Shown here in pieces: positions 11,965 to 60,193 of a DNA stretch of 64,000 nucleotides. The DNA comes from an uncultured Rikenellaceae bacterium (GTDB lineage: Bacteria; Bacteroidota; Bacteroidia; Bacteroidales; Rikenellaceae): assembly GCA_949287525.1 (NCBI GenBank), contig CASEGL010000001.1, positions 1 to 64,000 of the forward strand. Direction: 5' to 3'. The notes below the pieces were generated by a model. It saw only the letters and a program-made list of their open reading frames with translations. It was not told the origin of the DNA and searched no databases. Position 1 is the stretch's first letter. The number at the start of each line of letters is the position of its first letter. The position numbers and the translations under genes are program-made.

Positions 11965-14283
11965 ATGGCAACGAAAAAAGAAATGCACGAAAACCTCGTT
12001 ATCGTCGAGTCTCCCGCCAAAGCCAAAACCATCGAAAAATTTCTCGGCAAGGACTACACCGTCATGTCGAGTTACGGCCACATCCGTGACCTCTCCAAGA
12101 AAGAGCTGGGAATCGACCTGAAAGACAACTTCAAACCGGACTACGAAATATCGCCCGACAAGAAAAAGCTCGTCGAGTCCCTGTCCAAAAGCGCCCAGGA
12201 ATCCAAAACCGTCTGGCTCGCATCCGATGAAGACCGCGAAGGAGAAGCCATCGCATGGCACCTGACACAGGTACTCGGTCTGCCCGTGGATCAGACCAAG
12301 CGCATCGTCTTCCACGAAATCACCAAGAACGCTATTCTGGAGGCCATCGAACATCCGCGCACGATCGACATGAACCTCGTAAACGCCCAGCAGGCGCGCC
12401 GTCTGCTCGACCGTCTGGTCGGTTTCGAGCTGTCGCCCGTGCTGTGGAAGAAGGTGAAACCCTCCCTCTCGGCCGGCCGCGTGCAGAGTGTGGCCGTGCG
12501 GCTGATCGTGGAGCGCGAGCGGGAGATCATCGATTTCCGGAGCGTCTCCTACTACCGCATCACGGCCCGTTTCTACCGTTCGGACGATCCGGAGAAGACG
12601 CTGTTCCGCGCCGAACTCGACCGCCGCTTTGACACGGCCGCCGAGGCCGAAGCCTTTCTGCATACCTGCTCCGCAGCGTCGTTCAACGTGCTGGGCAGCG
12701 AGAGCAAACCGGCCGAGCGCAACCCTGCCGGCCCGTTCACGACCTCCACGCTCCAGCAGGAGGCCGGCCGCAAACTGGGCATGTCGGTCTCCCAGACGAT
12801 GACCATCGCCCAGCGGCTCTATGAAAACGGTTACATCACCTACATGCGTACCGACTCGCAGAACCTCTCCTCGCAGGCCATTGCCGCCGCGCACGAGGAG
12901 ATCGTCAAGCTGTTCGGCGAGGAGTACAGCCGTGTCCGCAAATACAAGACCAAAAGCAAGGGGGCCCAGGAGGCGCACGAAGCCATCCGCCCCTCGTACC
13001 TCAACCGCCGCGAGATCGAAGGTTCGGCCGAGGAGATGAAACTCTACGACCTGATCTGGAAACGCACGGTCGCCTCGCAGATGGCCTCCGCCAAACTCGA
13101 AAAGACGGTGGTCACGATCGGCGCCGACAACACCCCGCAGCGTTTCGTCGCTACGGGCGAAGTGATCCTCTTCGACGGTTTCATGAAGCTCTACTCGGAG
13201 ACGGTGGAGGACGAGACCGAGGAGGGACAGGAGAACCGCCTGCCGGAACTCCGCGCCGGCGATGCGCTCTCCTATCAGGACATTGCCGCCACGGAGCGCT
13301 TCACGCAGCCCCCGTTCCGCTACAGCGAGGCTTCGCTGGTACGCAAGCTGGAGGAGCTGGGCATCGGACGTCCTTCGACCTATGCCCCGACCATCTCGAC
13401 GATCATCAACCGCGGCTACGTCATCAAGCAGAACCGGCCGGGTTCCAAACGCGCCTACAACCAGATCAAGCTGGAGAAGGGCAAAATCTCCGCCCGGGAA
13501 CTCACCGAAACGGTGGGCCGCGAGAAGGCGAAGCTGTCGCCCACCGACATCGGCATGATCGTCACGGACTACCTCGACACCCATTTCGCCAAGATCCTCG
13601 ACTACAACTTCACGGCCAACGTTGAGAAGGAGTTCGACGAGATCGCCGAAGGAACGAAGGAGTGGACGCAGATGCTGCACGACTTCTATGCCGGCTTCCA
13701 CCCGACCGTGGAGCAGGCACTCGAGGAGCAGGTGGACCGCAGCAACAAGAGCCGCGTGCTGGGCATCGACCCGCAGAGCGGCCATCAGGTTTCGGCCCGC
13801 ATCGGCCGCTACGGCCCAATCGTACAGATCGACGGAGCCGAAGGCGAAAAACCGCGCTATGCGAGCATGAAGAAGGACCAGCTGATCGCCACCATTACGC
13901 TGGAAGAGGCGCTGGATCTCTTAAAGCTGCCGCGCACGCTGGGCGAACTTGACGGCAAGGAGGTCATCGTATCGACCGGCCGCTACGGCCCCTATGCCCG
14001 CTACGACGGCAAGTTCACCTCCCTGTCGCGCAAAGACGACCCGTACAGCATCACGCTCGAACGCGCCGTCGAACTGATCCGCGAAAAGGAACAGGCCGAC
14101 AAGACGGCGAAGGAGCCGATCAAGACCTTTGCCGAGGACGCCGACCTGAAGGTACTCAACGGCCGTTACGGCCCCTACATCGCCTGCAAAGGCAAGAACT
14201 ACCGCATTCCGAAGGGTACCGAGCCGACCGAACTGACCTATGAGGAGGCTCGCAAGATCATCGAAACGTCAAAGAAGAAATAG
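11965..14283 (+). CDS. topA: DNA topoisomerase I
   Basis: Type IA topoisomerase that relaxes negative supercoils. The Toprim domain is N-terminal (IVESPAKAKTIEKFLG; acidic triad in SDEDREGEAIAWHL). The catalytic Tyr is residue 293 in YMRTDSQ, and EAHEAIRP and GIGRPSTYAPTI follow. After about residue 590 come three glycine-rich C-terminal repeats (RIGRYGPIVQ, STGRYGPYARY, NGRYGPYIACKG) of the cysteine-free TopA C-terminal type instead of four-Cys zinc ribbons. The 772-residue length is normal for Bacteroidetes. It appears monocistronic. Confidence 0.97.
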   Translation: MATKKEMHENLVIVESPAKAKTIEKFLGKDYTVMSSYGHIRDLSKKELGIDLKDNFKPDYEISPDKKKLVESLSKSAQESKTVWLASDEDREGEAIAWHLTQVLGLPVDQTKRIVFHEITKNAILEAIEHPRTIDMNLVNAQQARRLLDRLVGFELSPVLWKKVKPSLSAGRVQSVAVRLIVEREREIIDFRSVSYYRITARFYRSDDPEKTLFRAELDRRFDTAAEAEAFLHTCSAASFNVLGSESKPAERNPAGPFTTSTLQQEAGRKLGMSVSQTMTIAQRLYENGYITYMRTDSQNLSSQAIAAAHEEIVKLFGEEYSRVRKYKTKSKGAQEAHEAIRPSYLNRREIEGSAEEMKLYDLIWKRTVASQMASAKLEKTVVTIGADNTPQRFVATGEVILFDGFMKLYSETVEDETEEGQENRLPELRAGDALSYQDIAATERFTQPPFRYSEASLVRKLEELGIGRPSTYAPTISTIINRGYVIKQNRPGSKRAYNQIKLEKGKISARELTETVGREKAKLSPTDIGMIVTDYLDTHFAKILDYNFTANVEKEFDEIAEGTKEWTQMLHDFYAGFHPTVEQALEEQVDRSNKSRVLGIDPQSGHQVSARIGRYGPIVQIDGAEGEKPRYASMKKDQLIATITLEEALDLLKLPRTLGELDGKEVIVSTGRYGPYARYDGKFTSLSRKDDPYSITLERAVELIREKEQADKTAKEPIKTFAEDADLKVLNGRYGPYIACKGKNYRIPKGTEPTELTYEEARKIIETSKKK

Positions 14284-14304: not shown

Positions 14305-14343
14305 ATCAGGGGCATCCGGATGGCCGGATGCCCCTGATATTTT
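14305..14343 (+). terminator. topA terminator
   Basis: Perfect 15-bp stem (14305-14319 with 14324-14338) and a short T run. Confidence 0.8.
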
Positions 14344-14375
14344 ACCGGCAGCAAAGAGACCGGCGACTCCCCCGC

Positions 14376-14415
14376 AAAAAAAGGCAGGGAGAACGACCCT
14401 GCCGCACTCCCTGCC
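14376..14415 (-). terminator. Terminator of the ahpC / structured RNA transcript
   Basis: On the minus strand GGCAGGGAG (14407-14415) pairs with CTCCCTGCC (14383-14391), followed by a seven-T run (14376-14382). Confidence 0.9.
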
Positions 14416-14445
14416 AGAAACAATTAACCTATTTTGCGTAACCTC

Positions 14446-14511
14446 CGGTCATGAGGGGAATACTCCCCTGTCAGGCGAGAGGGCCTCACGGATCTCCCTC
14501 TGTCACGACCG
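14446..14511 (-). ncRNA. Candidate structured RNA (three-way junction) downstream of ahpC
   Basis: Read on the minus strand, an outer 8-bp helix (14503-14510 with 14447-14454) encloses two hairpins: AGAGGG/CCCTCT (14496-14501 with 14478-14483, 12-nt loop) and AGGGGA/TCCCCT (14464-14469 with 14454-14459, 4-nt loop). The outer helix has a G-U pair on the minus strand that becomes an A-C mismatch on the plus strand, which favours minus-strand RNA. A strong minus terminator follows. It is not SRP, 6S, RNase P or tmRNA by any motif I recognise. No TAnnTTTG box precedes it, so it may be a processed ahpC 3' UTR. Confidence 0.4.
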
Positions 14512-14550
14512 CTAACTATCCTATGAAAAACCTTTTGTCCTTATCGTGAA

Positions 14551-15183
14551 TCAATGTTTGCTCAAATATTCGGAGACGCCCGCATCCGTTGCGCTCATGG
14601 CCTCGCGACCCTTGGCCCAGTTGGCGGGGCAGACCTCGCCGAACTCCTCGAAGTGCTGCAGGGCGTCCACCATGCGCAGCACCTCGTCCACATTGCGGCC
14701 GAGCGGCAGATCGTTGATGACCATGTGACGGACAATGCCGCTGCGGTCGATCAGGAACAGGCCGCGGTAGGCCACCGGCGCACCGTCGAAGAGCAGTTCG
14801 TCCTCATCGCCGGCCATGTACTCGCCGGCCAGCACGCCGTAATTCTCCGAAATCGTCTTCGTCGTATCGGCGATGATCGGATAGGTCACGCCCTGAATGC
14901 CCCCCTTGTTCTTCGGCTGGTTGAGCCATGCCAGGTGGGAATATTCCGAATCCACCGAGCAGCCCACTACCTGCACGTTGCGCGCTTCGAATTCGGGCAG
15001 TTTTTCCTGAAAGGCATGCAGCTCGGTCGGGCAGACGAACGTGAAATCCATCGGATAGAAGAACAGCACAACATATTTCTGTCCTTCGTAACGGTCGAGC
15101 GAAAATCCGTTCTCGATCCGATTGCCGTCCATAACGGCCGTTGCCTTGATGGCGGGCGCTTTTTTACCGATCAACGATCTCAT
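14551..15183 (-). CDS. ahpC: Alkyl hydroperoxide reductase subunit C (2-Cys peroxiredoxin)
   Basis: Reduces hydrogen peroxide and organic peroxides in the cytoplasm. The peroxidatic Cys51 is in FTFVCPTEL and the resolving Cys185 in EVCPANW, giving a typical 2-Cys AhpC/Prx1 of 210 residues. The C-terminus EYLSKH is of the Prx type. AhpF, the usual reductase, is not adjacent. A TATCTTTG box lies 51 nt upstream. The 3' side holds a structured RNA candidate and a terminator. OxyR in the same window is the likely regulator, which is inference. Confidence 0.96.
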   Translation of the reverse strand: MRSLIGKKAPAIKATAVMDGNRIENGFSLDRYEGQKYVVLFFYPMDFTFVCPTELHAFQEKLPEFEARNVQVVGCSVDSEYSHLAWLNQPKNKGGIQGVTYPIIADTTKTISENYGVLAGEYMAGDEDELLFDGAPVAYRGLFLIDRSGIVRHMVINDLPLGRNVDEVLRMVDALQHFEEFGEVCPANWAKGREAMSATDAGVSEYLSKH

Positions 15184-15234: not shown

Positions 15235-15242
15235 CAAAGATA
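15235..15242 (-). promoter_or_regulatory. -7 box TATCTTTG for ahpC
   Basis: TAnnTTTG match 51 nt upstream of the ahpC ATG; no clear -33 box. Confidence 0.65.
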
Positions 15243-50529: not shown

Positions 50530-50560
50530 TTGTACGGCTTACGCCGTTCCGACTATACGA

Positions 50561-50586
50561 GGGTATGCGCATAGCATACCCTTTTT
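50561..50586 (+). terminator. rpsT terminator
   Basis: Eight-bp stem GGGTATGC/GCATACCC (50561-50568 with 50574-50581) and TTTTT. Confidence 0.95.
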
Positions 50587-50715
50587 GCATGATACCCTGC
50601 GAGCGGCCGCTCCGCAGGGTTCTCCATGCAGCAAGACACGGGAAACAACATCTGCAGACAGGCCGACCTGTGCGGGAACCTCACCGGCGGCACCGGTTGT
50701 CCCATCTCCGAAACG

Positions 50716-50756
50716 GCAGCGCGCCGCATCCGGTCATCGGATGCGGCGCGCTGCCC
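50716..50756 (-). terminator. nfo terminator
   Basis: Perfect 18-bp GC-rich stem (50716-50733 with 50739-50756) downstream of nfo; the following T run is poor. Confidence 0.7.
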
Positions 50757-50804
50757 TGTGTATTGATCGGATTACCGGATCGGATTCCTCTTTCCGGCCG
50801 CACG

Positions 50805-57634: not shown

Positions 57635-58960
57635 ATGTTCGAGAACTTAACCGACAGACTGGAGAGGTCTTTCAAGATACTCAAGGGCGAAGGCCGCATC
57701 ACGGAGATCAACGTCGCCGAAACGCTCAAGGAGATCCGCCGCGCGCTGATCGACGCCGACGTAAACTACAAGGTAGCCAAGACCTTCACCGACGAGGTGA
57801 AGCAGAAGGCGCTGGGCGCCAACGTGCTGACGGCCGTCAAGCCGGGCCAGATGATGACCAAGATCGTCCGCGACGAACTGGCGCTACTCATGGGCGGCAC
57901 GGCAACGGACATCAACCTCGACGGCCGTCCGGCCGTGATCCTCATCGCCGGTCTCCAGGGTTCGGGTAAGACGACCTTCTCGGGCAAGCTGGCCAACCTG
58001 CTCAAGAGCAAGCGCGGACGCAGCGTGCTGCTCGTTGCCGGCGACGTCTACCGTCCCGCGGCCATCGAACAGCTGAAGGTGCTGGGCAGCCAGATCGGCG
58101 TGGAGGTCTACACCGAGGAGGGCAACAAGAATCCGGTGGAGATCGCCGAGAACGCCATCAAATACGCCCGCAGCAAGAACATCAACACGGTGATCGTCGA
58201 TACGGCCGGCCGTCTGGCCGTGGACGAGGCGATGATGGAGGAGATCGCGGCCGTCAAGAAGGCGATCAAGCCGACCGAAACGCTCTTCGTGGTGGACGCC
58301 ATGACCGGCCAGGATGCCGTGAACACGGCGCGCGAGTTCAACGACCGCATCGACTACGACGGCGTGGTACTCACCAAGCTCGACGGCGACACCCGCGGCG
58401 GTGCGGCCATCTCGATCCGCTCGGTGGTAAACAAGCCGCTGAAGTTCATCTCCTCGGGCGAGAAGATGGATGCCCTGCAGGTGTTCCACCCCGAACGCAT
58501 GGCCGACCGTATCCTCGGCATGGGCGACGTGGTTTCGCTCGTCGAGCGCGCCCAGGAGCAGTACAACGAGGAGGATGCCCGCCGGCTGAAGAAGAAGATC
58601 GTCAAGGACCAGTTCAACTTCAACGACTTCCTCGACCAGATCGAGCAGATCAAGAAGATGGGCAACATGAAGGACCTGATGGGCATGATCCCCGGTCTGG
58701 GCAAGGCCGTGAAAGATATCGACATTTCGGACGACATGTTCAAGCAGACCGAGGCGATCATCCACTCGATGACCCCCGCCGAGCGCGAGAATCCGGAGAT
58801 CATCAACCCCAGCCGCAAGGAGCGCATCGCCAAGGGCAGCGGCACGACGCTGGTCGAGGTGAACAAACTGCTCAAGCAGTTCGACCAGACGCGCAAGATG
58901 ATGAAGACCGTCGCCACGATGAAGCCCATGATGGGCATGGGTCGCGGCCGTCGCCGGTAA
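57635..58960 (+). CDS. ffh: Signal recognition particle protein Ffh
   Basis: A 441-residue SRP GTPase that targets nascent membrane proteins. N and G domains: GLQGSGKTTFSGKLAN (G1), DTAGRLAVDE (G3), TKLDGDTRGGAA (G4), then a methionine-rich M domain from about residue 320 (MGNMKDLMGMIPGLGKAV, SMTPAERENPEIINPSRKERIA), ending MMGMGRGRRR. The SRP RNA gene is not in this window. Confidence 0.98.
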   Translation: MFENLTDRLERSFKILKGEGRITEINVAETLKEIRRALIDADVNYKVAKTFTDEVKQKALGANVLTAVKPGQMMTKIVRDELALLMGGTATDINLDGRPAVILIAGLQGSGKTTFSGKLANLLKSKRGRSVLLVAGDVYRPAAIEQLKVLGSQIGVEVYTEEGNKNPVEIAENAIKYARSKNINTVIVDTAGRLAVDEAMMEEIAAVKKAIKPTETLFVVDAMTGQDAVNTAREFNDRIDYDGVVLTKLDGDTRGGAAISIRSVVNKPLKFISSGEKMDALQVFHPERMADRILGMGDVVSLVERAQEQYNEEDARRLKKKIVKDQFNFNDFLDQIEQIKKMGNMKDLMGMIPGLGKAVKDIDISDDMFKQTEAIIHSMTPAERENPEIINPSRKERIAKGSGTTLVEVNKLLKQFDQTRKMMKTVATMKPMMGMGRGRRR

Positions 58961-58992
58961 TTCCACCGCACACGACACCAAACAACATAACG

Positions 58993-59030
58993 GAGCCAGA
59001 CGACCGACGGTCGTCTGGCTCTCATTGTTT
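58993..59030 (+). terminator. ffh terminator
   Basis: Perfect 13-bp stem (58993-59005 with 59009-59021) followed by ATTGTTTT. Confidence 0.85.
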
Positions 59031-59080
59031 TAACGCCACACGCCATGCACTCCTCCGCCGACTGTCGGTCGCTCCGATAA

Positions 59081-59120
59081 GAAAGCGAGCTATCGTCTCT
59101 TAAGACGATAGCTCGCTTTC
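59081..59120 (-). terminator. dusB terminator
   Basis: Perfect 18-bp stem (59081-59098 with 59103-59120) downstream of dusB on the minus strand. Confidence 0.8.
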
Positions 59121-59144
59121 ACTTCCCGACCGCTGCCTCGGGGA

Positions 59145-60167
59145 TCACACTTCGTGCGAGAGGGGCGGCGGCACGGCACCCGAAAGGTCGCAGTCGCCCC
59201 ATCCGGCCGCCACTTCGTCGAGTGCGGCATTGATCTCGGCCACGTCCGTGAGCGTCACCAGCCGCAGGCGCATCGGCTTGAAGTTGGGCAACCCCTTGAA
59301 ATAGTTGGAGAGGTGGCGGCGCATCTCCAGCACGCCGACGCGGTCACCCTTCACCTCAACCGACTTGGCCAGGTGGCGCTTGGCGATCTCCACCCGCTCC
59401 AGCACGGTCGGCTGGGGCAGCAGTTCGCCCGTATCGAGGTAATGGCGCACCTCGCGGAAGATCCACGGACGGCCATACGTGGCACGGCCGATCATCACGC
59501 CGTCCACCCCGTAGTCGCGAAAGGCCCGCTCGGCCTTCTGCGGCGAGTCGATGTCGCCGTTGCCGATGATCGGGATGTGGATCAGCGGGTTGTCCTTCAC
59601 CCGCCCGATCAGCGTCCAGTCGGCATCGCCGGTGTACATCTGCGCCCGCGTGCGGCCGTGGATGGTCAGCGCGGCGATGCCCACGTCCTGCAGGCGCAGA
59701 GCGATCTCCTCGATGTTCTTGTGTTCGTCGTCCCACCCCAGGCGGGTCTTGACCGTCACGGGGATCTTCACGGCCTCGACGATGCGGCGCGTCATCTCCA
59801 CCATGAGGGGTACGTCGCGCATCATGCCGCTGCCAGCGCCCCGTCCGGCAATCTTGCGCACAGGACAGCCGAAGTTGATGTCGATCACGTCGGGGTGAGC
59901 CGCCTCGGCAATGCAGGCCGACTCGACCATCGGCTCGATCAGGTGGCCGTAGATCTGGATGCCCACCGGCCGCTCCTCGTCGGAAATGTTGAGCTTGGCG
60001 ACCGACTTGGCGCCGTCGCGGATCAGCCCGTCGGAGGAGATGAACTCCGTATAGACCATGTCGGCGCCGAAGCCCTTGCACATGTAGCGGAACGAAGGAT
60101 CGGTCACATCCTCCATCGGGGCGAGGAACAGCGGCTTGTCGCCGAGGTCGATATTGGCAATTTTCAT
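59145..60167 (-). CDS. dusB: tRNA-dihydrouridine synthase (DusB type)
   Basis: A 340-residue FMN enzyme that reduces uridines in tRNA to dihydrouridine. Motifs: LFLAPMEDVTDPSFR, then DINFGCPVRKIAGRGAGSGM with the catalytic Cys, VTVKTRLGWD, and IPIIGNGDIDSPQKA followed by GVMIGRATYGRPW. A C-terminal helical domain ends in LSHEV. The start MKIANIDLGDKP is preferred over MTTMKIA (60176). A TATCTTTG box is at 60194. Confidence 0.95.
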   Translation of the reverse strand: MKIANIDLGDKPLFLAPMEDVTDPSFRYMCKGFGADMVYTEFISSDGLIRDGAKSVAKLNISDEERPVGIQIYGHLIEPMVESACIAEAAHPDVIDINFGCPVRKIAGRGAGSGMMRDVPLMVEMTRRIVEAVKIPVTVKTRLGWDDEHKNIEEIALRLQDVGIAALTIHGRTRAQMYTGDADWTLIGRVKDNPLIHIPIIGNGDIDSPQKAERAFRDYGVDGVMIGRATYGRPWIFREVRHYLDTGELLPQPTVLERVEIAKRHLAKSVEVKGDRVGVLEMRRHLSNYFKGLPNFKPMRLRLVTLTDVAEINAALDEVAAGWGDCDLSGAVPPPLSHEV

Positions 60168-60193
60168 GGTTGTCACACTGCGATTCTACGGCG

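Follow-up and report, generated by a model that had tools for sequence, protein, structure and literature searches.

On the minus strand, a gene for a 210-amino-acid 2-Cys peroxiredoxin is followed by ~170 nt of untranslated sequence and a terminator, and topA converges on it from the opposite strand. The locus lies in the analysed window, a 64,000-nucleotide stretch of DNA from a genome of 1.68 Mb in 40 contigs. The named closest relatives of the peroxiredoxin point to Tidjanibacter (Rikenellaceae) as the host genus, rather than Alistipes, the genus given in the initial annotation: the protein of Candidatus T. faecipullorum, hereafter the sister species, is closest (95% identical), followed by those of Ca. 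T. gallistercoris and other Tidjanibacter. The features of the locus are as follows.

15235–15242, minus strand: Bacteroidota-type −7 box of the peroxiredoxin gene, TATCTTTG (TATATTTG in the same position in the sister)
14551–15183, minus strand: 2-Cys peroxiredoxin (AhpC/Prx1-type), the parent gene, from its open reading frame and NCBIfam profiles
14418–14522, minus strand: conserved 3′-UTR element, comprising the core fold and conserved single-stranded flanks, matched by covariance model R1
14504–14511, minus strand: 5′ arm of closing helix P1, CGGUCGUG, kept in the sister (pair probability 0.81–1.0 here)
14446–14453, minus strand: 3′ arm of P1, CAUGACCG, pairing with 14504–14511 and kept in the sister
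14472–14502, minus strand: P2 arm, formed by CAG/CUG, GGGAG/CUCUC and CC-GUGA-GG, with a GNRA tetraloop (GUGA here, GCGA in the sister)
14454–14469, minus strand: P3 hairpin, AGGGGA-GUAU-UCCCCU, not conserved in register
14418–14444, minus strand: single-stranded GAGGUUACGCAAAAUAGGUUAAUUGUUU, ~27 nt, identical in the sister bar a 2-nt indel
14376–14415, minus strand: intrinsic terminator of the peroxiredoxin transcript, conserved in the sister
14306–14345, plus strand: separate terminator of topA, a long GC-rich stem (−33 kcal/mol)
11965–14283, plus strand: topA, the convergent neighbour (TIGR01051 above cut-off)

Parent gene and transcript

The gene had been labelled ahpC, which holds in so far as it encodes a 2-Cys peroxiredoxin, with PRK15000 peroxiredoxin C as its top NCBIfam match (219 bits). 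However, the protein scores 130 bits against the AhpC equivalog TIGR03137, for which 272 are needed, and no AhpF was detected above cut-off in the genome, the best candidate being a 314-aa frame with 229 of the required 502.9 bits. The locus thus has neither the AhpC equivalog nor the AhpF partner of an AhpC/AhpF operon. The UTR may be tied to the peroxide response, a connection whose sole basis is the neighbouring gene. We note that at E 1e-40 the peroxiredoxin has no match in 17 of the 23 genus genomes (G004–G019, G022), several of which are >90% complete.

A perfect TAnnTTTG −7 box lies ~60 nt upstream of the peroxiredoxin start codon in both species, and a comparison of the two revealed neither a full nor a shared promoter-like box between the stop codon and the element. 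With a −7 box upstream of the gene and none in the intervening stretch, co-transcription of the element with the peroxiredoxin gene is the likeliest arrangement. The strong T-rich terminator reported previously at the end of this transcript was recovered (−26.0 kcal/mol, z −3.6); it consists of a 9-bp outer stem (14407–14415 with 14383–14391), an inner stem and a tract of 7 T's at 14376–14382.

Fold of the 3′ UTR in the window genome

The best core fold on the minus strand (−30.8 kcal/mol) is built from P1, a P2 interrupted by internal loops and capped by a GUGA tetraloop, and P3. The closing helix had been placed correctly: 14447–14454 (GGTCATGA on the plus strand) pairs with 14503–14510 (TCACGACC on the plus strand) over 8 bp, and its sole odd pair is G-U on the minus strand and A-C on the plus strand. 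At its ends, A14503 is able to pair with U14454, and a C-G pair (14446/14511) lengthens the helix. Two 6-bp hairpins had been drawn inside it. The one at 14454–14469 (AGGGGA/TCCCCT) is present, but the first (AGAGGG/CCCTCT) has a pairing probability of ~0.05 and is, under the folding model, a minor alternative in the wrong register; the earlier fold as a whole reaches −27.4 kcal/mol and is thereby 3.4 kcal/mol less stable than the best fold, in which CAG/CTG, GGGAG/CTCTC and CC-GUGA-GG pair instead. Pairing probabilities in P2 are 0.36–0.61 here and 0.86–0.98 for its inner part in the sister. The claimed preference for the minus strand exists but is slight (−30.8 on the minus versus −27.7 on the plus strand). 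A plus-strand reading was rejected, as topA is terminated by a hairpin of its own ahead of the element and folding is weaker on the plus strand. So was a small open reading frame in the UTR (with an ATG within P1), because a frameshift separates the versions of the two species.

The fold signal in this genome alone is marginal. The 66-nt core differs from shuffled sequences with z −2.4 (p 0.02), 14% of shuffled UTRs contain a helix of 8 bp that encloses 30–70 nt and has no more than one G-U pair, and among 557 intergenic windows from both species combined the core takes 64th place, behind many that bear terminators. The 135-nt UTR minus its terminator is no more stable than its shuffles (p 0.33). 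One genome alone would not support a structure claim. The sister's core was more clearly separated from shuffles (z −3.0, p 0.004).

Conservation in one sister species and absence elsewhere in the genomes searched

The same gene order of peroxiredoxin, element, terminator and convergent topA is found in Ca. T. faecipullorum (G001), which R1, a covariance model made from the window sequence alone, matches with 46.9 bits (E 1.8e-10). Identity between the two species at four-fold degenerate sites is 66% in the peroxiredoxin gene and 72–73% in topA. The single-stranded GAGGTTACGC(AA)AATAGGTTAATTGTTT is identical in both except for a 2-nt indel, the GGTTTTTCA-AGG-TAGTTA stretch preceding the fold is nearly identical, and inside the fold the two sequences differ at about half of the positions. 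The initial annotation had named a lack of stem conservation as grounds against its own proposal; in the sister P1 and P2 are kept without a broken pair. In a structure-fitted alignment of the two sequences, two pairs of P1 are changed on one side only and P2 shows three two-sided and two one-sided changes, whereas three of the six P3 pairs are broken; 3′-letter shuffles attain the observed values in 9 of 500 cases. Because this first alignment was fitted to the structure, we also used a structure-aware aligner and a null that keeps identical sites and permutes differing letters, which gave a structural gain with p 0.03 for P1 and P2 and p 0.06 for the whole fold, again from two sequences. RNAalifold on a MAFFT alignment puts the helices in the wrong place, since the stems have diverged. 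The proposed check for covariation therefore came out in part: the sister keeps the closing helix and the P2 hairpin with some compensatory change, but the signal is weak (p ~0.03–0.06) and P3 is not in register. As a two-sequence comparison, it is suggestive of compensatory change, not proof.

A search for the same fold downstream of ahpC in other Alistipes genomes had been suggested; the fold turned up in the sister species only and in none of the other ahpC genes searched in the genus and family. Across 268 family genomes R1 matched only the window and the sister species, and no further copy was found in an order-level sample of 393 genomes searched with stricter filters. R2, run over genus and family, likewise matched only the two sister species and, with filters off, yielded nothing below E 0.16 at 15 other ahpC loci. 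Other genus members with the peroxiredoxin gene (G002, G003, G020 and G021) have different 3′ UTRs and terminators. The element would thus be either new in this species pair or diverged past recognition elsewhere. In G020 (L029 1500–2256), an unrelated hairpin (TGTCATA/TATGACA) follows the peroxiredoxin stop codon ahead of the terminator. Folding may thus recur in 3′ UTRs of this gene even where they have no sequence in common.

No Rfam family matched at its gathering score, in agreement with the initial annotation, and relaxed limits gave only chance-level matches. One of these, PrrB/RsmZ (RF00166), covers 14375–14510 on the same strand and has several hairpins and a terminator in common with the element, but it was rejected because its 13.7 bits (E 0.55) fall short of the gathering score, 44. 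A 131-nt query against its own genome returned, besides itself, a single 14-nt match at chance level; without a second copy in the genome, the element is not a dispersed or REP-like repeat. A mobile-element or phage origin was also discarded: plasmids gave 0 matches, phages gave two chance-level tRNA matches, and viral contigs gave no exact pattern match.

Possible roles of the peroxiredoxin 3′ UTR

We lean, with modest confidence, towards a lineage-specific structured 3′ UTR of the peroxiredoxin mRNA that protects and ends the message. A monocistronic mRNA would start at the gene's own Bacteroidota-type promoter and read through the stop codon; its ~170-nt UTR would make a closed, junction-like fold of P1, GNRA-capped P2 and a variable second hairpin, and the ~27 nt downstream of the fold would stay single-stranded before the intrinsic terminator ends the mRNA. 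The role would most likely be passive, with termination before convergent topA, and we infer that the fold shields the 3′ end of an abundant message against 3′-to-5′ decay. Of the initial proposal of an undescribed RNA, a structured minus-strand 3′ UTR outside Rfam is retained, but one of its hairpins was in the wrong register and the other is unconserved in register. Bacterial 3′ UTRs carry intrinsic terminators with stabilizing upstream hairpins, which the element resembles in its stable stem-loops, both at the end of the transcript and ahead of it, and from which it differs in its three-arm fold and conserved 27-nt single-stranded stretch. This conserved unstructured stretch exceeds the needs of a purely protective UTR, and a base-pairing or protein-binding role would fit it. 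A structured 3′ UTR and nothing further would, if true, be a routine finding.

A more active function can be envisaged, in which cleavage of the mRNA frees P1/P2, the single-stranded GAGGUUACGCAAAAUAGGUUAAUUGUUU as a pairing region and the terminator, and the resulting 3′-UTR-derived regulatory sRNA acts on other mRNAs upon induction of the gene. The layout of a structured 5′ part, a conserved single-stranded stretch and a terminator fits this possibility, conservation is highest in the single-stranded part, and the terminator at 14376–14415, kept in the sister, is shared with the parent mRNA as in sRNAs of this class. Such sRNAs are established in Bacteroides thetaiotaomicron, for example BTnc028 (PMC7366714, PMC10994844), where 21 UTR-derived candidates were reported and Northern blotting verified one of the 3′ type (PMC7366714). 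Like those sRNAs, the element belongs to a Bacteroidales mRNA 3′ UTR and ends at the mRNA's own terminator; unlike the element, which is known from sequence alone, they are backed by Northern blots and by mapping of their processing or start sites. The search of its own genome with the 131-nt query turned up no conspicuous complementarity, only the chance-level 14-nt match, which counts against such an sRNA, and we consider one unlikely. Its more specific form, a regulatory RNA of recent origin, limited to two Tidjanibacter species and coupling peroxiredoxin induction to control of other messages via GAGGUUACGCAAAAUAGGUUAAUUGUUU, is more doubtful still. Should the sRNA reading hold, a stress-gene 3′ UTR of a little-studied gut lineage would have given rise to a young, lineage-specific sRNA, a useful case for the origin of such RNAs.

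It is also improbable, in our assessment, that the fold arises by chance in a GC-rich UTR and is shared through close kinship, with selection only on the terminator and a few sequence motifs. The frequency of the helix in shuffled UTRs, the ordinary stability of the UTR minus its terminator, the loss of P3 in the sister and the absence of the element from other ahpC genes of the genus would all be expected, as would the degree of conservation, given that the best 60-column identity of the UTR region (0.78) is like that of several others among the 31 intergenic regions compared in the window. Against this reading, P1 and P2 can both still form, through three two-sided changes, although about half of the fold sites differ, and the fold of the sister sequence is more stable than chance would give. 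We regard as very improbable a separate sRNA gene in the intergenic region, read from a promoter of its own downstream of the peroxiredoxin stop: a terminator is present and the position between convergent genes is that of many sRNA genes, but no TAnnTTTG-like box with a −33 TTG is common to both species, either in the UTR or over the final 150 nt of the gene. A comparable setting has been described in Porphyromonas gingivalis, also of the Bacteroidales, where the small PG_RS02100 transcript is likewise intergenic between two converging genes and its loss alters ahpC expression and oxidative-stress tolerance (PMC6231650). In the available part of that report, PG_RS02100 is supported by Northern and mutant data, in contrast to the sequence-based element here, and is not described as part of ahpC (PMC6231650).

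Two other intergenic regions of the window were recorded. The first, 58961–59144, shares a 95-nt identical run with Ca. T. faecipullorum and is 93% identical overall, compared with 50–75% for most intergenic regions. It is flanked by convergent genes, 57635–58960 on the plus strand (ffh-like) and 59145–60176 on the minus strand (dus-type-like), has a strong terminator-like hairpin on each strand and matches no Rfam family. The four-fold identity of the flanking genes is higher too (0.85–0.87), so recent exchange is possible there. The second, 50530–50804, is a long convergent intergenic region poorly conserved in sequence in the sister; its very strong hairpins (z ~ −8), including a GC-rich stem GGCAGCGCGCCGCATCCG near 50720–50765, are probably two terminators.
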